Assembly: GCF_009857885.1 (NCBI RefSeq)
Contig: NZ_WWER01000005.1
Location: 62,001-126,000, forward strand
From: Pusillimonas sp. TS35
GTDB lineage: Bacteria > Pseudomonadota > Gammaproteobacteria > Burkholderiales > Burkholderiaceae_B
DNA length: 64,000 bases
Direction of reading: 5' to 3'
Shown here piece by piece: positions 48,700 through 57,327 of this stretch. A model generated the notes under the pieces. It had not been told where the DNA came from. It searched no databases and saw only the letters and a list, made by a program, of their open reading frames with translations. A program made the translations under genes and the position numbers. Numbering within the stretch: position 1 is the stretch's first letter; each line of letters opens with the position of its first letter.

Positions 48700-48843
48700 C
48701 TGGATCAATTATTTTCGTACTGCTTCTCGCTATTGATGCCGCTTATAGCTTGTTTATATATAAATAAATAATTAAAAAGTTGATTTAATGATGGATTATG
48801 CATGAGAAAATCATATAGCTAACTGTTATGTAAGGTGGCCTTC
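48700..48843 (+). promoter_or_regulatory. AT-rich upstream region of rhodanese operon
   Basis: This stretch stands out from the GC-rich surroundings as strongly A+T-rich, especially 48750-48830, with several overlapping possible -10 hexamers (for example TATATA and TTATGT). It precedes the rhodanese gene. It may be a promoter with an UP-like element or a site for a nucleoid protein. No single promoter could be chosen. Confidence 0.4.
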
Positions 48844-49809
48844 ATGAAATTCTCGCTTTCCCGCGCAGGTGCGGTTTTGTTGGCCGGCGCTGCGTTGCTC
48901 GCCGCCGGCTCGTCGTTCGCTGCGCCGGCGTCCCAGCCGCTGCTCACGCCAGCGCAGCTCGATACCCTTCGCCAGGATGCCGCCGTGCGCGTCATTGATA
49001 TCCGTCCGCCCGAAGCGTACAGCGCCAATCACATCCCTGGCGCTGTGTCGGCACCGTATGGAAAATGGCGTGGCCCGGCCAACAGCCCCGGCCAGTTGCC
49101 CGAAGTCTCCAAGCTTGCGGCGTTGATCGGCAGCTTGGGGCTCAAGCCTGACAGCCATGCCGTCGTGGTATCGTCGGGCGCCAATGACACCGATTTTGGT
49201 GCGTCCGCGCGGGTGTACTGGACACTCAAGTATCTCGGGCTTACCAATCTTTCGGTACTCAACGGCGGCATGAAGGCCTGGAGCGCCGCCAGCCTGCCGC
49301 AAGACACTGCAGTGCCGTCGATTGCGGCCACACAGTACACGCCCGCATTGAACGAAGCGATTCTGGCTACGCAGGCGCATGTCGAATCCCAGGTCAGCAA
49401 CCCCAAGGCCCGGCTGGTTGATGCACGCCCGGCCAATTTTTTCGCCGGCGAGGCCAAAGCGCCCACCGCTAAAGTGCCGGGCACCATCCACAATGCAGTC
49501 AATCTGCCGCACAGTAAATGGTTCAAGCCGGGTACGTCTGAGTTCGTCTCGCCGGAAGCGGCGAAGAAGATCGCCGCCAGCGAGTTCGCCACCCAGGCCG
49601 ATGAAACTATTTCGTTCTGCAATACCGGTCACTGGGCCGCTACAGATTGGTTCGCGCTGTCGGAGGTCGTGGGGCTGGACAATGTCAAACTATACCCCGC
49701 GTCGTTGGCAGAATGGACACAATCGGCGCGTGCACTGCCCATGGACAATGTGCCTAGCCGCGGCAGCCAGATCATCAACAGCCTCAAAGGCCTCATCGGG
49801 AAATCCTGA
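48844..49809 (+). CDS. periplasmic two-domain rhodanese (sulfurtransferase)
   Basis: This gene encodes 321 residues. A signal peptide of about 28 residues (MKFSLSRAGAVLLAGAALLA, cleavage after SFA) is followed by two rhodanese domains. The first has VRVIDIRPPEAYSANHIPGAV but no active-site Cys (VVVSSGAND). The second has RLVDARPANFF and the catalytic loop FCNTGHWAATDWFAL with Cys. A single active centre in the C-terminal domain is the usual rhodanese pattern. TAAGG precedes the ATG at 48844; a GTG three codons earlier is an alternative. It is followed closely by a YeeE/YedE transporter, suggesting periplasmic handling of thiosulfate-type sulfane sulfur. Confidence 0.87.
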   Translation: MKFSLSRAGAVLLAGAALLAAGSSFAAPASQPLLTPAQLDTLRQDAAVRVIDIRPPEAYSANHIPGAVSAPYGKWRGPANSPGQLPEVSKLAALIGSLGLKPDSHAVVVSSGANDTDFGASARVYWTLKYLGLTNLSVLNGGMKAWSAASLPQDTAVPSIAATQYTPALNEAILATQAHVESQVSNPKARLVDARPANFFAGEAKAPTAKVPGTIHNAVNLPHSKWFKPGTSEFVSPEAAKKIAASEFATQADETISFCNTGHWAATDWFALSEVVGLDNVKLYPASLAEWTQSARALPMDNVPSRGSQIINSLKGLIGKS

Positions 49810-49818
49810 TTTATCTAC

Positions 49819-50964
49819 ATGAGTACTGCTTACGTAACCCAAGCGGGTGCCGTGTCGCTGCCGGCAGGGCGCGTCACCCGCAACCGTATTTTCCTTGGTT
49901 CGGCAATTGCTGCGTTCTTCCTCTTCCTGATCTGGTTCGTCTCTCTGCGCCAGTCCGTCCTGTTTCTGGTGGGGCTGGGCATGGGCAGTGTGCTGGCGGG
50001 CATGCGTTTTGGCTTCACCACAGGCTGGCGCAAACTGATCGAGCAGCGCGACGCCAGTGGCGTGCTGGCGCAGATTACTTTGCTGATCCTCGCTGCCGCT
50101 GTGGCCATGCCCTTGCTGGCAGTCTTTCCCGGCGATCTGATCGCCGCATTGGGGCCGCCAAGCATCAGCCTGCTGGTGGGCGCTTTCATATTCGGCCTGA
50201 CGATGCAGATTGCCGATGGCTGCGGCTCGGGCACGCTTTACAAGGCCGGCCTGGGTATCCCACTCAATACGGTGATTCTGCCGGTGTTCGCGATCGGCAG
50301 CTTCCTGGGCTCCGCTCACCTTGAAAGCTGGCTGAGCCTGGGCGCCGTCAAGCCTGTAAGCTTGGTGGCCCAGCTCGGTGCGCCTGGGGCATTTGCCCTC
50401 ACCCTGGCCGGCCTGGCCGCGGTGGGCGTCATCGTCTGGCGCATCTCGGACAAAACCCGCCCATGGCTGGACAAACGGCTGCTTATTGGTGCCGTGCTTC
50501 TGGCCATATTCGCCACGCTGAACCTGGTCATTGCCGGACAGCCTTGGGGGATTGTGTATGGCTTCGGCCTGTGGGGTGCCAAGCTCGCCACCGCCGCCGG
50601 TGCCTTCGACCCGGCCGCAAATGCGTTCTGGAGCCAGACGGTCAACCTCACCAATTTGTCGCAGTCTGTGTTTCTGGATGTCACGTCCATCACCAACATC
50701 GGCATTCTGGCTGGTGCCTTGTGGATTGCCGCCGGCAAGCCACCTGCATCAGCCACCACCAAGCCGCTCAATGGCACGCAATGGGTCGTGGGGATCGCTG
50801 CCGGCTTTTTGCTGGGCTATAGCTCCCGCCTGGCCTTTGGTTGCAATATCGGCGCCATGGTCAGCGGCATTTCCACCGGCAGTTTGCACGGCTGGATCTG
50901 GGTGCCGCTGGCATTCTGCGGTTCGCTGATCGGTGTGCGCGTGCGCCGCTATTTCAAGTTCTGA
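49819..50964 (+). CDS. YeeE/YedE (TsuA-like) sulfur-compound transporter
   Basis: This gene encodes 381 residues with about nine to ten hydrophobic segments. The family motifs with conserved cysteines are present: DGCGSGTLYKAGLG near residue 133 and AFGCNIGAMVSGISTGSLHGW near residue 345. These correspond to the thiosulfate-relaying cysteines in TsuA. It starts 9 bases after the rhodanese stop, so the two are almost certainly one operon. It would import thiosulfate or a related sulfane-sulfur ion. Confidence 0.88.
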   Translation: MSTAYVTQAGAVSLPAGRVTRNRIFLGSAIAAFFLFLIWFVSLRQSVLFLVGLGMGSVLAGMRFGFTTGWRKLIEQRDASGVLAQITLLILAAAVAMPLLAVFPGDLIAALGPPSISLLVGAFIFGLTMQIADGCGSGTLYKAGLGIPLNTVILPVFAIGSFLGSAHLESWLSLGAVKPVSLVAQLGAPGAFALTLAGLAAVGVIVWRISDKTRPWLDKRLLIGAVLLAIFATLNLVIAGQPWGIVYGFGLWGAKLATAAGAFDPAANAFWSQTVNLTNLSQSVFLDVTSITNIGILAGALWIAAGKPPASATTKPLNGTQWVVGIAAGFLLGYSSRLAFGCNIGAMVSGISTGSLHGWIWVPLAFCGSLIGVRVRRYFKF

Positions 50965-50976
50965 ACGGAGGCCATC

Positions 50977-51141
50977 ATGAAGAAACCCGTGCTTGCTTCC
51001 GTTTTCTGGATCGTGCTGCTCGCGTTCTTTGCCTGGGATTGGGTGTCGTCCGCCCCCATCAACGTGCGGCTCGAGCCGCCCTTTATCGCGGCGGGATCAG
51101 GCCAGGCGCCCACCGGCGGGCACTGTGCCGCTACGTTCTAG
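50977..51141 (+). CDS. 54-residue single-span membrane protein
   Basis: The frame starting at 50977 encodes MKKPVLASVFWIVLLAFFAW and continues for 54 residues in all. A basic N-terminus leads into one hydrophobic helix (about residues 5-22), then a short polar tail that contains a single Cys at position 50. AACGGAGGCC gives a strong ribosome site, and the gene begins 12 bases after the YeeE/YedE stop. It is probably a third member of the sulfur operon, perhaps an accessory subunit. I do not recognise the family. Confidence 0.7.
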   Translation: MKKPVLASVFWIVLLAFFAWDWVSSAPINVRLEPPFIAAGSGQAPTGGHCAATF

Positions 51142-51166: not shown

Positions 51167-51170
51167 GCCC

Positions 51171-51268
51171 AATGCTCCGGGGTGTGTTTGCAGCCGTGCT
51201 GAAACACTGAGATGGCCAGGTCGAACCCGCGAACTTGATTCGGCTCATACCGACGTAAGAAGAGTGCT
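51171..51268 (+). ncRNA. TPP (THI-box) riboswitch
   Basis: The conserved parts appear in order. GGGGTGTG follows the P1 5' side (GCTC at 51174-51177, able to pair with GAGT at 51262-51265). CTGAGATG at 51207-51214 is the pyrimidine-binding loop. ACCCGCGAACTTGATTCGG is next, and ATACCGACGTAAGAA corresponds to the pyrophosphate side (usually ATACCAGCGTAGGGAA). The P3 arm (GTGTTTGCAG...CTGAAACAC) is also present. It precedes the LuxE-like gene by about 110 bases, and TPP binding should turn the operon off. Confidence 0.93.
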
Positions 51269-51322
51269 TTGACTGTGCCCGCATGGCGGTTGCCGTGCGG
51301 CGCACATCCATCCCATACGCAT

Positions 51323-51372
51323 CCCTTTCGGAGCAGTCCCCGGCCTGTGCCGGCGCTACACCTTAGAAAGGG
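51323..51372 (+). promoter_or_regulatory. Shine-Dalgarno-sequestering hairpin
   Basis: CCCTTTC (51323-51329) is perfectly complementary to GAAAGGG (51366-51372), which is the ribosome site of the LuxE-like gene. Between them a 5-bp hairpin CCGGC-CTGT-GCCGG (51340-51353) brings the arms together. There is no T-run, so this looks like a translational rather than a transcriptional expression platform for the riboswitch. Confidence 0.65.
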
Positions 51373-51377
51373 CTTTT

Positions 51378-52472
51378 GTGTCTACCTCACCATCAGCAGT
51401 GCCGCAGGCCTTGCTGGCAGACCTGCAGCAGTTCATGCGTCAGCCGCAAGAAGGCGACGAGGCCTTCAACGCGTTGGCGCTGCGCCTCTTCGAACATCAG
51501 TTCCGCCACAATGCGGCCTATCAGCGCTATTGCCGCTTCGTGGGCAAGACGCCGCGCCTGCTGACGCGCTGGCAGGATATCCCGTCTGTGCCCATTGATG
51601 CCTTCAAGGATCTCACGCTGAGCTGTGTCGCACCCGATCAGTGCGAACGGGTCTTCATGACCAGCGGCACCACGCGGGCCGAACGCCGAGGCCGCAATTA
51701 TCATCCGCATCTCCAGGTCTACGATCTGTCCATGCGCCTGTATTTCAGCCAGCGCTTCATGCGCGGCACGCCCCGCATGCGTATGGGCATCCTGTTTCCC
51801 ACAGAGCAGATGATGCCCAATTCATCGCTGGCGCATTATCTCGCGCTGGCGCTGGAGCATTTCGGCGACGCGGGCAGCCGCTATTTTGTCAGTCCAAGTG
51901 GTGTAGAGCTCGATGCGCTGTGTCAGGCGCTGGCGCAGGCGCAACACGACCACACACCCTTTGCGCTGCTGGGGGCCAGCTACAGCTTTGTGCACGTCAT
52001 GGACGCTCTGGGCGAGCGCGGCCTGCGCTTTCAACTGCCCGCGGGCAGCCGTTTGTTCGATACCGGCGGCTTCAAAGGCCAGTCGCGCACCATGCAGGCC
52101 GCCGAGTTTTACGATTTGCTGCACCATTGCTTTGGTGTGCCCCCGCAGCACTGCACCAACATGTATGGCATGACTGAACTGAGCTCGCAGATCTACGACA
52201 ACGGCAACGCCACGCTGCCGGCCGTAAAGTCGGGCCCTCACTGGACACGCACGCGCGTACTGGATCCCGTCACCGGGCAGGAGATGCTTGATGGCGAGGA
52301 GGGTATTTTGGCCCACACGGATCTGGCCAACTTCAATTCAGTGTGCGCCATCCTTACCGAAGACCTCGGCGTGCGTGTACCGGGTGGTTTCCTGCTGCTG
52401 GGGCGGGCCGATGGCGCAGCGGCCAAAGGCTGTTCGCTGGCCATGGAAGCCTTTCTGCAGGCGGCGCAATGA
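51378..52472 (+). CDS. LuxE-like acyl-protein synthetase
   Basis: This gene encodes 364 residues from a GTG start preceded by GAAAGGG. The LuxE domain features are IPSVPIDAFKDLTL, the adenylation P-loop FMTSGTTRAERRG, CTNMYGMTELSSQIYDN and the C-terminal GRADGAAAKGCSLAMEAFL. The Cys at 352 matches the acyl-accepting cysteine of LuxE. The enzyme activates a carboxylic acid with ATP, carries it as a thioester and passes it to a LuxC reductase, whose gene overlaps this one by ATGA. There are no luciferase genes here. Position behind a TPP riboswitch suggests a carboxylate related to thiamine rather than a fatty acid. The ANL fold and Cys are visible; the substrate is inference. Confidence 0.85.
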   Translation: MSTSPSAVPQALLADLQQFMRQPQEGDEAFNALALRLFEHQFRHNAAYQRYCRFVGKTPRLLTRWQDIPSVPIDAFKDLTLSCVAPDQCERVFMTSGTTRAERRGRNYHPHLQVYDLSMRLYFSQRFMRGTPRMRMGILFPTEQMMPNSSLAHYLALALEHFGDAGSRYFVSPSGVELDALCQALAQAQHDHTPFALLGASYSFVHVMDALGERGLRFQLPAGSRLFDTGGFKGQSRTMQAAEFYDLLHHCFGVPPQHCTNMYGMTELSSQIYDNGNATLPAVKSGPHWTRTRVLDPVTGQEMLDGEEGILAHTDLANFNSVCAILTEDLGVRVPGGFLLLGRADGAAAKGCSLAMEAFLQAAQ

Positions 52473-53932
52473 ATACAGCCAGCCTGGCTTGCGGCTATCT
52501 GCCGCCGGGCGCCGACTTGGGCCCGATCGAATGGTCCGCCCGGCAGGTGGTTGGCCCACATGGCGCATTTCCGCTGGCTTTGCCTCGCTTGAATCCTGCG
52601 CAGTTGCGGCAACTGGGCGCTTACTTGCAGGCTCAGGCGCGCGTTCATCTCCACCCGCTCGCCGTGCTAGACATCGCAGCGGGCATTGATCGCTGCATCG
52701 CCGATATGCTGCAGCCCGGGCAGCCGCTGCGCCTGCGCTACGAACCCGCGCTGCTGGCGCAGACCGGCTACGACGCTGAAATGCTGCGCTTGGGCATCAA
52801 TAATTGCCTGCGCAACTTCAGGCGCCCCGAACTGCTGCGCATGCTGTGCGAAGATCTCGGCGACCCGGGTCTGCTCGATGGCTTTCGCCCGCGCGTGCAG
52901 GGGGGCTGGTCGCGTGCCTACGGCCCTGGGTTGCTGGGGCAGGTCTGGGCCGGTAATGTGCCCGGTATCCCCTTGTGGGGCATGGTGGCCTGCCTGCTGA
53001 CCAAAGGCGCCAGCCTGGGCAAGCTGGCCAGCGCGGAGCCCATCTTTGCAAGCTGGTTTGCCCACAGCCTGGCGCAGGCCGCACCTGAGCTGGCGCAGGC
53101 GTTGGCGGTGGTCTGGTGGCCGGGTGGCGATGCGGGCAGCGAGGCTGCCTTGGTGGACGCGGCCGATGTCATGATGGTTTACGGGGGCGACGAAGCCCTG
53201 CGGGCGTGGCAGGCCAAGATTCCACCCCATGTGCGCTTCCTCCCTCATGGTCATAAATTCAGCGTTGCTCTCGTTGCAGCCTCGGCCTTGGATACCCGCC
53301 AGGCGGCGCAGTGCGCGCGCTTGGCGGCGCGAGACATTGCCCAGTGGGATCAGCAGGCTTGTTATGCGCCGCAAAGCATTTATGTGCAACGCGGCGCTGC
53401 GGTTAGTCCACGAGATTTCGCGCTGCTGCTGGCGGGCGAATTGGCTGCATTGGCGCGCCGCCACCCACGGCAGGCATTGCCCTTGGATGACAAAACACAA
53501 TTCGCAAAGTGGCGCCAATCGCTCAGCCTGCGGGCGCTGCGGGGCGAAGCGCTTGAGTTGATGGGCCCGGCCGATGCCGACTGGTCAGTCGCTTATCTGG
53601 ACGACGCCGTTGCGCCAGAAGCCAGCGCTACGTTTCGCAGCGTATCGGTCATTGCAGTGGACAACGTGGAAGTCGTTGCGCGCCAGCTGCAGCCGTATCG
53701 TCGCTATTTGCAAACCGCAGCGGTCGCCGCCAGCCCCGAATCCCTGTTCGACGTGGCCGAAGCGCTCGCTCAAGTCGGCATCAATCGCATAAGCGCACTG
53801 GGCGCCACGGCCAGCCCACAACCAGGATGGCATCACGATGGCCGCTTCAGCGTGCTGGACCTGCTGCGGATGTCCGACATCGAGGCCAGCGCCGAGACGC
53901 TGGCCCAGGATTTTGCGAGTTATCGTGATTGA
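52469..53932 (+). CDS. LuxC-like acyl-CoA/acyl-protein reductase
   Basis: This 487-residue aldehyde-dehydrogenase-like reductase of the LuxC family has GQVWAGNVPGIPLWGMVACLLTKGASLGKLAS, the nucleotide-binding region. QWDQQACYAPQSIYVQRG holds the catalytic Cys at 298. FRSVSVIAVDNVE and a C-terminal GINRISALGATASPQPGWHHDG, family-typical, follow. It would accept the acyl group from the LuxE-like protein and reduce it to an aldehyde with NADPH. The ATGA overlap with the LuxE-like gene and the 8-base overlap with the ABC ATPase gene indicate tight coupling. Catalytic residues appear intact. Confidence 0.86.
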   Translation: MNTASLACGYLPPGADLGPIEWSARQVVGPHGAFPLALPRLNPAQLRQLGAYLQAQARVHLHPLAVLDIAAGIDRCIADMLQPGQPLRLRYEPALLAQTGYDAEMLRLGINNCLRNFRRPELLRMLCEDLGDPGLLDGFRPRVQGGWSRAYGPGLLGQVWAGNVPGIPLWGMVACLLTKGASLGKLASAEPIFASWFAHSLAQAAPELAQALAVVWWPGGDAGSEAALVDAADVMMVYGGDEALRAWQAKIPPHVRFLPHGHKFSVALVAASALDTRQAAQCARLAARDIAQWDQQACYAPQSIYVQRGAAVSPRDFALLLAGELAALARRHPRQALPLDDKTQFAKWRQSLSLRALRGEALELMGPADADWSVAYLDDAVAPEASATFRSVSVIAVDNVEVVARQLQPYRRYLQTAAVAASPESLFDVAEALAQVGINRISALGATASPQPGWHHDGRFSVLDLLRMSDIEASAETLAQDFASYRD

Positions 53933-54701
53933 AGCGGCTGCCGGCTCATCCTTTTTGCGCCTCGATGCTCTGGATTATCGATATCCTGGCACGGATTACG
54001 GCCTGCGCGATATCGATCTGCGGCTCGATGCCGGTGAGTTTCATTGCCTGCTGGGCCGCAGCGGTTGCGGCAAGTCTACGCTGCTCAAGCTGGCGGCGGG
54101 GCTGCTGCAGCCCACGGCCGGGCGAGTGCTCTTGCAAGGCAAGCCGCTGTTCAAGCCCACGTCTGCGATCGGTTTTGTATTTCAGCAGCCAACGCTGTTG
54201 GACTGGCTGACTGTGCTGGACAATGTGTTGTTGCCGGCCTCGCTGAAAGGCCGCGCGCAGGGGCGGGCGGGTGCGGCCATTCGCGACGATGCTCTGCAGC
54301 TGCTGGATGAGCTTGAGTTGGGCAGTCATGCGCACAGGTATCCCACACAGCTTTCGGGCGGGCAGCAGAGCAGGGTGGCGATCGCCCGCGCCATGCTGAT
54401 GCGCCCGGCCTTGCTGTTGATGGACGAGCCCTTCGCTGCGCTGGACGCGCTGACGCGTGAGCAGTTGCAGGACACCTTGCTGTACACCTGTGGGCAGCAC
54501 GGCAGCACGGTATTGTTTGTAACCCATGACATCGCCGAGGCCGTCTACTTGGCTGACCGGGTGACCGTGCTGGACGACGGGCGGCAGGCGCATTGCCAGC
54601 CGGTGAACCTGCCGCGCCCGCGCCACAGCGCGCTACGCGACAGCCCGGCCTATCATCACGCATGTGCGGAACTACGCAGCCACATTGGGCGGGTGCCATG
54701 A
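53925..54701 (+). CDS. ABC ATPase, ThiZ-like
   Basis: This gene encodes 258 residues from a GTG at 53925 that lies 8 bases inside the end of the LuxC-like gene. It has Walker A LLGRSGCGKST, Q-loop FVFQQPTLLDWLTVLDNV, signature LSGGQQSRVAIARAM, Walker B LLLMDEPFAALDAL and H-loop FVTHDIAEAVYLADRV. It is the nitrate/taurine/ThiZ class that powers importers with NMT1-like receptors. Its genes for permease and receptor follow directly. Confidence 0.86.
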   Translation: MIEAAAGSSFLRLDALDYRYPGTDYGLRDIDLRLDAGEFHCLLGRSGCGKSTLLKLAAGLLQPTAGRVLLQGKPLFKPTSAIGFVFQQPTLLDWLTVLDNVLLPASLKGRAQGRAGAAIRDDALQLLDELELGSHAHRYPTQLSGGQQSRVAIARAMLMRPALLLMDEPFAALDALTREQLQDTLLYTCGQHGSTVLFVTHDIAEAVYLADRVTVLDDGRQAHCQPVNLPRPRHSALRDSPAYHHACAELRSHIGRVP

Positions 54702-55498
54702 AGCCGTTGTTTGCCATGCGTCGCGTTCGCACAGGGATCGGCTCCCTAATCATACTGGTCGTACTTATCGCCGCCTGGGAAGCGGCCGTCCGCCAATTCG
54801 GTTGGTCGCCCTTGGTCCTTCCGGCACCCAGCCGGGTCTGGCACAGCTTGTGGTCGGGCCTGGTCGCTGGCTATTTCTGGCCGCACATTGTGCAAACAAC
54901 GCGAGAAGTCTTGCTGGGCCTGCTGCTCGGCGGGGCCATCGGTTTTGGCATGGGCCTATTGCTGGCGCAGTCGCGTTTTGTCCAGGCGGTTCTCATGCCA
55001 TACATTCTGGCCAGCCAGGTCGTGCCCAAACTTGCGCTGGCCCCGCTGCTGACGCTGTGGCTGGGTTTTGGCACGCTGCCGATGGTGGTGATCACCGCGC
55101 TGGTCTGTTTCTTCCCCTTGTTGGAAAACACCCTTACCGGCCTGGGCCAGACAGACCAGGCCAGGTTGGAACTGTTCCGCATGCTGGGGGCCAGCCGTTG
55201 GCAAACCTTGTGGCGGCTGCGGCTGCCGATGGCCATGCCTGGCGTCATGGCAGGTGTGCGCATCGCCGCGGTGCTTGCGCTGGTTGGCGCCGTGGTGGGC
55301 GAGTTCATTGGCGCCAGCCAGGGCCTGGGGGCGCTCATCATCGCCGCCCAGGGCTCTATGGATACCGCCTTGATGTTTGCCGTTCTGTTGCTGATCACCA
55401 TACTGGGCTTGCTGCTGTATCAGCTAAGCCTGCTGTTGCAGCACATTATGCTGCGCCATTATTCATCTACTCGGGAGTCAAGCGCCCATGAATACTAG
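54698..55498 (+). CDS. ABC permease, ThiX-like
   Basis: This gene encodes 266 residues with about six hydrophobic segments. LVLPAPSRVWHSLWSGLVAGYFWPHIVQTTREVLLG is the standard start of the SsuC/TauC/ThiX class. FRMLGASRWQTLWRLRLPMAMPGVMAGVRIA is the EAA loop that contacts the ATPase. The ATG at 54698 overlaps the ATPase stop by ATGA, and the gene overlaps the receptor gene by 11 bases. Confidence 0.87.
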   Translation: MKPLFAMRRVRTGIGSLIILVVLIAAWEAAVRQFGWSPLVLPAPSRVWHSLWSGLVAGYFWPHIVQTTREVLLGLLLGGAIGFGMGLLLAQSRFVQAVLMPYILASQVVPKLALAPLLTLWLGFGTLPMVVITALVCFFPLLENTLTGLGQTDQARLELFRMLGASRWQTLWRLRLPMAMPGVMAGVRIAAVLALVGAVVGEFIGASQGLGALIIAAQGSMDTALMFAVLLLITILGLLLYQLSLLLQHIMLRHYSSTRESSAHEY

Positions 55499-56486
55499 AC
55501 GCCGAATTCTGCACGCAATTGCCGCTTTGTGCGCGGCGGGTGGGTTGGGTGCATACGCTGTGCCGACCTTCGCCCAGGCGGCGCCGCAGCCCATCACCTT
55601 GGCTGGTTGGAGCAAACCGATCAGCGAGATCACTCAGATTCTCGCCGAACCTGAGCTTGGCCATTTCAGGCACGAAGGGCTGACGCTGAATTATCTGCCG
55701 GGCGCGGGCGGGGGCGACGCCCTGCGCAATCTGTTGAGCGGGCAGGCGGATGTCGCCTTCACTGATCCGGGCTCCTTCTTTGCGGCCCTGGACAAAGGGG
55801 CGAAGCTGCGCGCCATTTATGACATCTATCCCCAGAACGTCTTCAATGTTGTAACGCTGGAGGGCAGCCCCATACAGAGCGCGGCCGATCTCAAAGGCAA
55901 GCGCATCGGGGTGTACAGCCTGTCCAGCGGTACGCGCCAGAATCTGCAGATCCTGCTGCACAAGGCGGGGCTGAACGAAGGTGATGTCACCATCATCGTC
56001 ACCGGTCTGCTGAACTTTGCTCCGTTGATGCAGGGGCAGGTAGACGCCACCGCGGCCACGGATACAGGTCTGTTGCTGGCAAAATACCGCGGCCTTAAAA
56101 ACCCTGGTGTGATAAAGGTGGCGGATTACCTGAATTACTCCAGCGATCTGTTCGTGGTGCGCGAAGAAGACTATCAGCGGCGCAAACCCTTGCTGCAGCG
56201 ATTTCTGCGCGCTTATCGCGCCAGCACGCAGTGGATGATGGGCCACCCCGACGACGCGGCCCGTCTCGCGGTCAAATACGCCATCGATGGCCGCGACCCA
56301 GTGCTGAATCGGCAGATCATCGAGGCGCGCAATGCGTCCAGCCTTTCGGCATATACCGATCAGCATGGGCTGGGGGCGCTGGATCTGGTGTCTTTGCAGG
56401 CCGCGGCGGACGCTTATTACGAGCTGGGGCTGATCGGCCATAAACTCGACCTGCGCGATGCGGTGGCGACGGATATGCTGCCATGA
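55488..56486 (+). CDS. ThiY/NMT1-like periplasmic receptor
   Basis: This gene encodes 332 residues. A signal peptide ends at about residue 30 (TFAQA). The mature protein starts PITLAGWSKPISEITQILAEPELGHFRHEGLTL and carries GAGGGDALRNLLSGQADVAFTDPGSFFAAL, the NMT1/THI5-like receptor motif. ThiY proteins of this family bind formylaminopyrimidine and related thiamine-pyrimidine fragments. Here the TPP riboswitch 4.3 kb upstream supports a thiamine precursor as ligand. The exact ligand could differ, because taurine and nitrate receptors share the fold. Confidence 0.84.
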   Translation: MNTRRRILHAIAALCAAGGLGAYAVPTFAQAAPQPITLAGWSKPISEITQILAEPELGHFRHEGLTLNYLPGAGGGDALRNLLSGQADVAFTDPGSFFAALDKGAKLRAIYDIYPQNVFNVVTLEGSPIQSAADLKGKRIGVYSLSSGTRQNLQILLHKAGLNEGDVTIIVTGLLNFAPLMQGQVDATAATDTGLLLAKYRGLKNPGVIKVADYLNYSSDLFVVREEDYQRRKPLLQRFLRAYRASTQWMMGHPDDAARLAVKYAIDGRDPVLNRQIIEARNASSLSAYTDQHGLGALDLVSLQAAADAYYELGLIGHKLDLRDAVATDMLP

Positions 56487-56559
56487 GTGGTGGCGCACCA
56501 CAGGTTAGTTGCAATGCATGTGGCACGCATTGGCTGCGGCGGCCAGTCAGGAAACTTCA

Positions 56560-57327
56560 ATGAAACTGAACGATAAAGTCGTATTGATCACGGGTGCCGG
56601 CCGGGGCCTGGGCGCGGCTACGGCGCGTGCCTTTGCCCGCGAGGGGGCGGTGGTGATCGTCAACTATCTGCAAAATACCCAGGCGGCCGAACAAGTGGTC
56701 GCCGACTGCAAGCAAGCGGGTGGGCAGGCCTGGGCCATGCAGGCCGACGTCACGGACGCTGTGGCGGTCCAGGATATGGTGAGCGAGATCGTCCTGGAAA
56801 CAGGGCGCATCGACGTTCTGGTCAACAATGCATTCGCGCCGTATCGCTTTGATCCCGACACCCGTCTCCGTTTTACGCAATTGGGGTGGGAAGCCTGCCA
56901 GCGGCAGTTCGAGGGGGCGGTGAAGAGCGCGTGGCAGACGAGCCAGGCCGTGGTGCCGCACATGCAGCGGCAGGCCGGCGGCAGTATCATCAACATCAGT
57001 ACCGACCTGACCGAGCAGGCGGTGGTGCCATATCCTGACTACGCCACAGGCAAGGCGGCCCTGCAGGGCCTGAGCCGACAAATGGCGGCCGACCTGGGGC
57101 AATATGGTATCCGCGTCAATTGTGTAGCGCCGGGCCTTGTCTGGCCCACCGATGCCAGCCGCGACACCCGCGCCAGCATACGGCAGCAGATCATCGCCCA
57201 GACGCCGCTGCGGCGCGTAGCCACACCAGAGGACATCACCGGCCCCATCTTGTTTCTGGCGTCAGCTTACAGCCAGTTCATGACGGGGCAAGTGATTTAC
57301 GTGGATGGCGGGCTGTTGATGCGCTGA
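56560..57327 (+). CDS. SDR-family reductase at end of TPP-regulated operon
   Basis: This gene encodes 255 residues. The cofactor loop is LITGAGRGLGAATA, then NNAFAPYRFD in place of the usual NNAG. The catalytic Ser is in IINISTDLTEQ and Tyr-x-x-x-Lys in PYPDYATGKAALQ; C-terminal GQVIYVDGG follows. It is annotated-by-similarity as a 3-oxoacyl-ACP reductase type, but true substrate is open. It follows the receptor gene by 73 bases on the same strand with no terminator seen between, so it probably belongs to the riboswitch operon. There it could reduce the aldehyde produced by the LuxC-like enzyme to an alcohol. Confidence 0.82.
   Translation: MKLNDKVVLITGAGRGLGAATARAFAREGAVVIVNYLQNTQAAEQVVADCKQAGGQAWAMQADVTDAVAVQDMVSEIVLETGRIDVLVNNAFAPYRFDPDTRLRFTQLGWEACQRQFEGAVKSAWQTSQAVVPHMQRQAGGSIINISTDLTEQAVVPYPDYATGKAALQGLSRQMAADLGQYGIRVNCVAPGLVWPTDASRDTRASIRQQIIAQTPLRRVATPEDITGPILFLASAYSQFMTGQVIYVDGGLLMR

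Follow-up and report, generated by a model that had tools for sequence, protein, structure and literature searches.

The window analysed here is a 64,000-nucleotide stretch of the Pusillimonas sp. TS35 genome (contig NZ_WWER01000005.1, positions 62,001 to 126,000 of the forward strand), and our subject is a run of six genes within it that lie behind a thiamine pyrophosphate (TPP) riboswitch and encode a LuxE-like protein, a LuxC-like reductase, the three components of an ATP-binding cassette (ABC) importer and a short-chain dehydrogenase/reductase (SDR). It is very likely that this operon serves the pyrimidine branch of thiamine, and we lean, with distinctly less assurance, to the view that it reduces a 5-carboxy pyrimidine to hydroxymethylpyrimidine (HMP). 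The reading we favour as a whole, and consider probable, is that of a TPP-repressed operon which would salvage the pyrimidine half of thiamine by taking in an oxidised, carboxylated pyrimidine and giving out HMP. In this reading we infer the repression of the operon by TPP, the substrate and the direction in which each reaction runs; the substrate and the reactions, and with them the notion that the imported compound is a carboxylate that is reduced twice, are predicted from family membership. An importer with a riboswitch is a known kind of arrangement; a pyrimidine-branch unit that combines the two with a carboxylate reductase of the LuxE/LuxC type looks undescribed in the open-licence literature, where no paper tying LuxE or LuxC to thiamine by its title or the start of its abstract appeared among the matches listed (subscription papers were outside the scope). 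The unit consists of the following features.

51168 to 51278, forward strand: aptamer of a TPP riboswitch (THI element, RF00059); the match spans model positions 1-105 of 105 and scores 61.9 bits, over the gathering score of 54.3 (E 9.7e-10).
51378 to 52472, forward strand: predicted LuxE-like acid-activating, acyl-carrying protein, GTG start; PF04443 at 9.6e-20, LuxE chain of PDB 7xc6 at 1e-14; presumed acyl-acceptor Cys352 in KGCS.
52469 to 53932, forward strand: predicted LuxC-like acyl-thioester reductase; PF05893 at 1e-80, LuxC chain of PDB 7xc6 at 1.6e-16; presumed catalytic Cys298.
53925 to 54701, forward strand: ABC importer ATPase, GTG start; PF00005 at 2.8e-33.
54698 to 55498, forward strand: ABC importer permease; PF00528 at 1.6e-33.
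55488 to 56486, forward strand: periplasmic receptor of the NMT1/THI5 family, ThiY-like by fold; PF09084 at 1.6e-44.
56560 to 57327, forward strand: SDR, presumed aldehyde-to-alcohol reductase; PF13561 at 2.4e-58.

The start codons of the six operon genes are our own choice, and with these starts the first five genes, from LuxE to the receptor, overlap one another by 4 to 11 bases; the SDR gene, which does not overlap, starts 73 bases past the receptor gene. The aptamer exceeds the gathering score of RF00059 and belongs to that family by its covariance-model score, and the ATPase, permease and NMT1/THI5 receptor behind a TPP element have the composition of a ThiXYZ-type importer. Rfam, Pfam and the coordinates bear out the arrangement described in an earlier sequence-only reading of this DNA, which had placed overlapping LuxE, LuxC, ATPase, permease and receptor genes behind a TPP riboswitch and an SDR gene after them. 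The minimum-energy fold computed for the leader RNA was not that of the aptamer, and leader folding said nothing clear about an expression switch. The home genome (4.10 Mb, 99.98% complete) also contains thiC, and thiG with a DAO-family (ThiO-like) gene. At its threshold, a genome-wide TPP search gave the window element alone; only a looser threshold brought out a second element directly upstream of thiC (L119 2647-2755, contig C23, 44.4 bits, E 2e-5), which is below the gathering score.

The proposed route would begin with the import of an oxidised pyrimidine, most likely 4-amino-2-methylpyrimidine-5-carboxylate or a close relative, by the receptor, permease and ATPase. The LuxE-like protein would adenylate the acid with ATP and take the acyl group onto Cys352, the LuxC-like enzyme would reduce the thioester to the 5-aldehyde by means of Cys298, the SDR would reduce the aldehyde to HMP, and ThiD and ThiE would turn HMP into thiamine phosphate. 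Conversion of a 5-carboxylate ring to HMP needs an activation and two two-electron reductions, to the aldehyde and to the alcohol, which matches what LuxE, LuxC and the SDR would provide. 2-Methyl-4-amino-5-pyrimidinecarboxylic acid is a urinary metabolite of thiamine.

The riboswitch in front of LuxE is conserved. Searches with the LuxE protein gave 7 carriers among 300 genomes of the order, 37 among 250 of the window's family (home genome included; two of these matches, G509 and G453, cover just 64 and 72 residues), 3 among 74 of a second family and 37 among 399 of a third, to which the carrier Acidovorax sp. Leaf160 belongs. A scan of named GTDB genomes with the window LuxE protein gave 8 loci, of which at least L002 and L005 lie in genomes already present in these surveys; its closest named relative in that scan is from an Alcaligenaceae metagenome-assembled genome (68% identity). 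The total comes to 77 LuxE places, spread over three families of the order to which the window belongs, and four listed genomes of the window's genus are without the protein, so that its distribution is patchy. Of the 77 places, 70 (70 of the 75 scanned; G509 and G453 were not) have a same-strand TPP element no more than 3 kb upstream, with part of the 70 matches scoring under the Rfam gathering score; the TPP searches took in 43 and 36 genomes. The distance between TPP element and LuxE is 52-269 bp (median 89) in 65 places and 884-1024 bp in five. Two of the scanned places without a match, G553 and G693, have a LuxE gene that starts at a contig end or at most 250 bases from one. For the named loci the count is 7 of 8, L008, without a match, having been scanned at the gathering threshold only. 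This arrangement is far beyond chance, and the link between LuxE and TPP riboswitches, which the sequence-only reading had proposed to survey in relatives, is conserved across three families.

The order of the genes is conserved as well. Homologues of LuxE, LuxC, the permease, the receptor and the SDR follow one another in the same order in 38 loci (L044-L081), and 35 further loci (L084-L118) agree, except for five that are cut by contig or stretch ends (L089, L091, L110, L113 and L118); the genes in these loci were called by BLAST against the window's proteins and their order was taken from the ends of the open reading frames (ORFs). Four of the 38 (L044, L046, L047 and L053, the first of which is identical with L002) have no ATPase gene; in these LuxC is followed directly by the permease, and a shared ATPase may therefore be used.

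Within the fetched stretches of 74 loci (L007, L044-L081 and L084-L118), thiD, thiE, thiO or thiG was present in 15. Counted by protein clusters, among the 45 largest, thiD occurs in 14 of the 74 loci, thiE in 12, thiG in 11 and thiO in 10. In six cases (L007, G240, G550, G697, G921 and G984) thiD has its place between riboswitch and LuxE. Of these thiD copies, the one in G550 matches PF08543 (2.1e-95), and the remaining five share 71-75% identity with it. The locus of G240 (L080) has the order TPP-thiD-LuxE-LuxC-ATPase-permease-receptor-SDR-thiE-thiO-thiS-like-thiG, and its ThiS-like ORF, judged by eye, ends in GG. No thiC was found in this genome, which is 98% complete. Neither LuxE nor thiC nor thiG was found in G210, G563 and G270 of the same genus, so that G240 seems to have gained the cassette, which suggests that the thiamine cassette arrived with LuxE/LuxC as one piece.

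The kinase ThiM, needed to use a thiazole alcohol, passed the cut-off in 10 of the 39 LuxE-positive genomes tested, and nine of these belong to one genus. It was not over the cut-off in the other 29, 26 of which gave no match (the home genome among them) and 3 a weak partial one; the carriers of the second and third families in this test were G204, G093, G133 and G240 only, and the four LuxE-negative genomes of the scan were also without ThiM. Together, thiD inside the unit in six loci and the ThiM profile disfavour the thiazole limb and favour the pyrimidine limb, that is, HMP as the product. The sequence-only reading had proposed the salvage of an oxidised thiamine fragment and named two examples of it: the pyrimidine option gains from the thiD genes in the unit, and the thiazole option loses by the ThiM profile.

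ThiG is present in 16 of the 17 LuxE-positive genomes without thiC, the exception being G693, which is 55% complete; in one scan ThiG was found in 43 of 43 genomes. Among thiC-negative genomes at least 90% complete, ThiG occurs in 11 of 11 with LuxE versus 9 of 22 without it (Fisher p 0.0016 by genome, and 0.0036 minus two LuxE-positive genomes that are more than 5% contaminated); a further five of the 22 controls, not counted here, gave weak partial ThiG matches with E from 4e-4 to 8.4e-4, and in two of these the match was flagged over the cut-off together with neighbours. By genus the figures are 9 of 9 versus 4 of 15 (p 0.0006). The LuxE-negative controls were 44 genomes of the second and third families, 22 of them without thiC, picked from the listed genomes before their thiC state was known and with a preference for high completeness; they were not sampled at random, and genomes of one family cannot be treated as independent. 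The system does occur in near-complete genomes that lack ThiC and keep ThiG, the pattern that the sequence-only reading had suggested looking for. On a tree of the LuxE protein (73 rows) the absence of thiC requires at least six changes and is therefore not a single event; this is a gene tree and not a species tree, with 12 thiC-absent rows labelled and G422, G404 and G458 (85-86% complete) left unlabelled. In comparison with ThiC, the HMP-P synthase, the operon would meet the same need for the thiamine pyrimidine (11 near-complete carriers have ThiG and no ThiC), but it would do so by reducing an imported ring, whereas ThiC performs a radical synthesis from aminoimidazole ribotide.

The first two proteins have the residues expected of their families. 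The LuxE-like protein carries the Pfam LuxE domain and a C-terminal cysteine as presumed acyl acceptor, and the LuxC-like protein the Pfam LuxC domain and a presumed catalytic cysteine. The KGCS motif of the former aligns with KGCS of the LuxE chain of 7xc6 and the DQQAC motif of the latter with DQQAC of the LuxC chain, and Cys352 and Cys298 are each invariant in 25 of 25 aligned copies. As in the LuxC-LuxE fatty-acid reductase of bioluminescent bacteria (7xc6), the two homologues are adjacent and their acyl-acceptor and catalytic cysteines are conserved. In contrast to that system, the window proteins fall far under the NCBIfam equivalog cut-offs (63.1 bits versus 550 for NF052244, the fatty-acid LuxE, and 87.1 versus 750 for NF052251, LuxC), their context is thiamine-linked, and none of the six operon genes codes for a luciferase, a negative that covers the operon and not the genome. 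The nearest fold to the predicted LuxE structure (pLDDT 88.3) is that of PaaK2 with phenylacetyl adenylate, followed by other acyl and aryl-acid ligases, and 7xc6 is not among its best 50 structural matches. A PaaK-type match of the model is weakly consistent with a heteroaromatic acid.

For the receptor, PF09084 was matched by 25 of 25 aligned relatives. Its AlphaFold2 model (pLDDT 88.1) has as best PDB match 3ix1, the formylaminopyrimidine (FAMP) receptor ThiY (E 3.4e-22, TM 0.76 by query), followed by the thiamin-bound 4nmy and then SsuA, with Thi5 chains appearing from rank 9 and TauA at rank 28. A taurine or sulfonate receptor, the alternative that the sequence-only reading had allowed for, is thus placed behind ThiY by the model. 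A sequence-profile search ranks 3qsl first, followed by 4nmy and THI5. All 25 aligned SDR copies have the YxxxK motif (Y161 and K165). The unit resembles the ThiXYZ/ThiY importer of FAMP in its predicted TPP control, in its ABC importer with an NMT1/THI5-type receptor and in a probable pyrimidine salvage that feeds ThiD. It differs from salvage by ThiXYZ with YlmB and TenA in that the six window genes include an acid-activating protein, an acyl-thioester reductase and an SDR; YlmB and TenA are found neither among these six genes nor among ten scanned neighbour families, and no genome-wide search was made for either. The receptor shares its superfamily (PF09084) with the HMP synthase THI5 but differs from it in having transporter partners and, by eye, an N terminus that resembles a signal peptide. 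It holds a single cysteine, residue 15, and does not contain the THI5 active-site cysteine cluster. On the missing cysteines and the transporter partners we reject a THI5-type enzyme.

Several observations weigh against the salvage of a carboxylated pyrimidine or limit what it explains. None of the thi genes looked for was seen within the fetched stretch in 59 of the 74 loci, and three scanned places (G366, G458 and G475) have no TPP element even at E<=1. thiC is present in 58 of the 75 LuxE-positive genomes tested (35 of 39 in one set, where the match in G475 is partial with E 4.6e-32, and 23 of 36 in another), so that for most carriers the system is usually a supplement; nor is thiC rarer in carriers, being missing from 13 of 36 LuxE-positive and 22 of 44 LuxE-negative genomes. 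Since 9 of the 22 LuxE-negative, thiC-negative genomes keep ThiG, other sources of the pyrimidine probably exist. The PaaK-like fold is common to the LuxE superfamily, and an aromatic substrate does not follow from the fold alone. The best PDB match of the receptor by sequence, 3qsl, is an exported protein of unstated ligand, and its best NCBIfam model is the SsuA sulfonate-receptor subfamily (2.9e-30), although below the cut-off (105.5 versus 163.5 bits). The window is among the 8 of 25 aligned copies with Thr at position 148 of the SDR, where the other 17 have the usual Ser.

Among the alternatives, the one with most left to recommend it, although we think it unlikely, is that a different thiamine pyrimidine (HMP, FAMP, or an aminomethyl- or formyl-pyrimidine) is the cargo of the importer and that LuxE and LuxC serve another step, such as the formation of some acyl or aldehyde intermediate. 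FAMP, the ligand of the receptor's best structural match ThiY, is not an acid, and a salvage of FAMP to HMP through the aminomethylpyrimidine AmMP and TenA is known (described in PMC10470507). Under such a reading, however, LuxE and LuxC would be left without a clear role, yet both cysteines are intact in every aligned copy. Moreover, no deformylase or TenA was present among the ten recurring neighbour families scanned, a scan that leaves out 11 of 21 clusters and the whole genomes.

Much less probable is the import of thiamine acetic acid and its reduction to intact thiamine. The title of one paper describes this compound as a metabolite, and the thiamin-bound receptor 4nmy ranks second for the receptor model. 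However, ThiG is kept by all 11 near-complete thiC-negative carriers, and in several the operon has thiD, thiE, thiO or thiG next to it. A carrier supplied with thiamine itself would have no use for these genes, and the retention of ThiG together with the coupling genes nearby leads us to reject the conversion of thiamine acetic acid to thiamine.

The salvage of 4-methylthiazole-5-acetic acid, which would be reduced to hydroxyethylthiazole, is given hardly more than a slight chance. Its chemistry would suit LuxE, LuxC and the SDR equally well, the acid is a known thiamine metabolite according to the title of a paper, and ThiM does occur in a quarter or so of the carriers tested (the 10 of 39 above). 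The rest of the carriers, the home genome included, have no ThiM over the cut-off with which to use the thiazole alcohol, ThiG is retained both in the 43-genome scan and in all 11 near-complete thiC-negative carriers, and the kinase found in the operon is ThiD; the ThiM profile and the retention of ThiG lead us to reject a thiazole product as the principal explanation.

A fatty-acid or general carboxylate reductase that has nothing to do with thiamine and stands under the TPP riboswitch by a chance of gene order is very improbable: the characterised relatives of LuxE and LuxC (7xc6) do act on long-chain acids, but the TPP link is conserved in three families, thi genes are nearby in 15 of 74 loci, and the fatty-acid models of NCBIfam score only 63 of 550 and 87 of 750 bits. 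The importer is most improbable of all as one for taurine or alkanesulfonate, which is what the SsuA subfamily model for the receptor, the SsuC and TauC models that come second and third for the permease (all below cut-off) and the third structural rank of SsuA would suggest, and it is rejected on the higher structural rank of ThiY and the thiamin receptor, on the predicted TPP control and on LuxE/LuxC and thiD in the unit, which would be useless for sulfonate uptake (sulfonate monooxygenases were not searched for).

With these alternatives weighed, the reduction of a carboxylated pyrimidine to HMP would constitute a pyrimidine route independent of ThiC, in which a LuxE/LuxC-type reductase and an SDR make HMP from a 5-carboxy pyrimidine, formed by oxidation of thiamine and taken up from outside, and a supposed dead-end catabolite becomes a usable B1 vitamer. 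The route could travel with thiD, thiE, thiO, thiS and thiG as a cassette that lets HMP auxotrophs make thiamine. To this wider proposal we give somewhat better than an even chance. If it is true, carboxylate reduction would be a further entry to the known recycling of the thiamine pyrimidine, and LuxE/LuxC proteins outside light production would have a defined job. Predictions of auxotrophy would be corrected, because the lack of ThiC would no longer make a genome with ThiG and the operon a plain HMP auxotroph. The proposal also predicts that a B1-related acid passes from thiamine-oxidising organisms to bacteria that reduce it back, and each proposed step can be tested with a few defined compounds. 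As to the taxonomic setting, genes for transporters of thiamin or its precursors are TPP-regulated in almost all lineages studied in PMC3766115, with Burkholderia and Ralstonia among the exceptions, and the part of its table that we covered includes no Alcaligenaceae or Comamonadaceae.

When the operon and the thi genes are set aside, 21 clusters recur in 4 or more of the 74 loci. The widest of these is a TctC-type tricarboxylate receptor in 21 of 74 loci (e.g. L050 14919-16139); the TctC family is very numerous in these bacteria, and its recurrence here is probably due to that abundance. Genes of the TsaD type (5 loci), for a LysR regulator (4) and for an FAA hydrolase (4) are likewise seen in scattered loci, and most of the 21 clusters are in 4-8 loci that, judged by eye, seem to be near relatives. 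Pfam scans of the representatives of ten clusters gave no thiamine gene, no deformylase and no TenA, the other 11 clusters being unscanned. In L096 (G745), thiE, thiG and thiO lie upstream on the opposite strand, a thiD match lies upstream on the operon strand, and the stretch has three TPP matches.

In the window itself, the region directly 5' of the riboswitch (48835-50964, same strand) encodes a rhodanese-domain protein and a YeeE/YedE-type sulfur transporter, which possibly form a sulfur supply unit. Between the sulfur transporter and the riboswitch lies a 54-codon ORF (50977-51141) for a small protein that, by eye, is apparently membrane-like.

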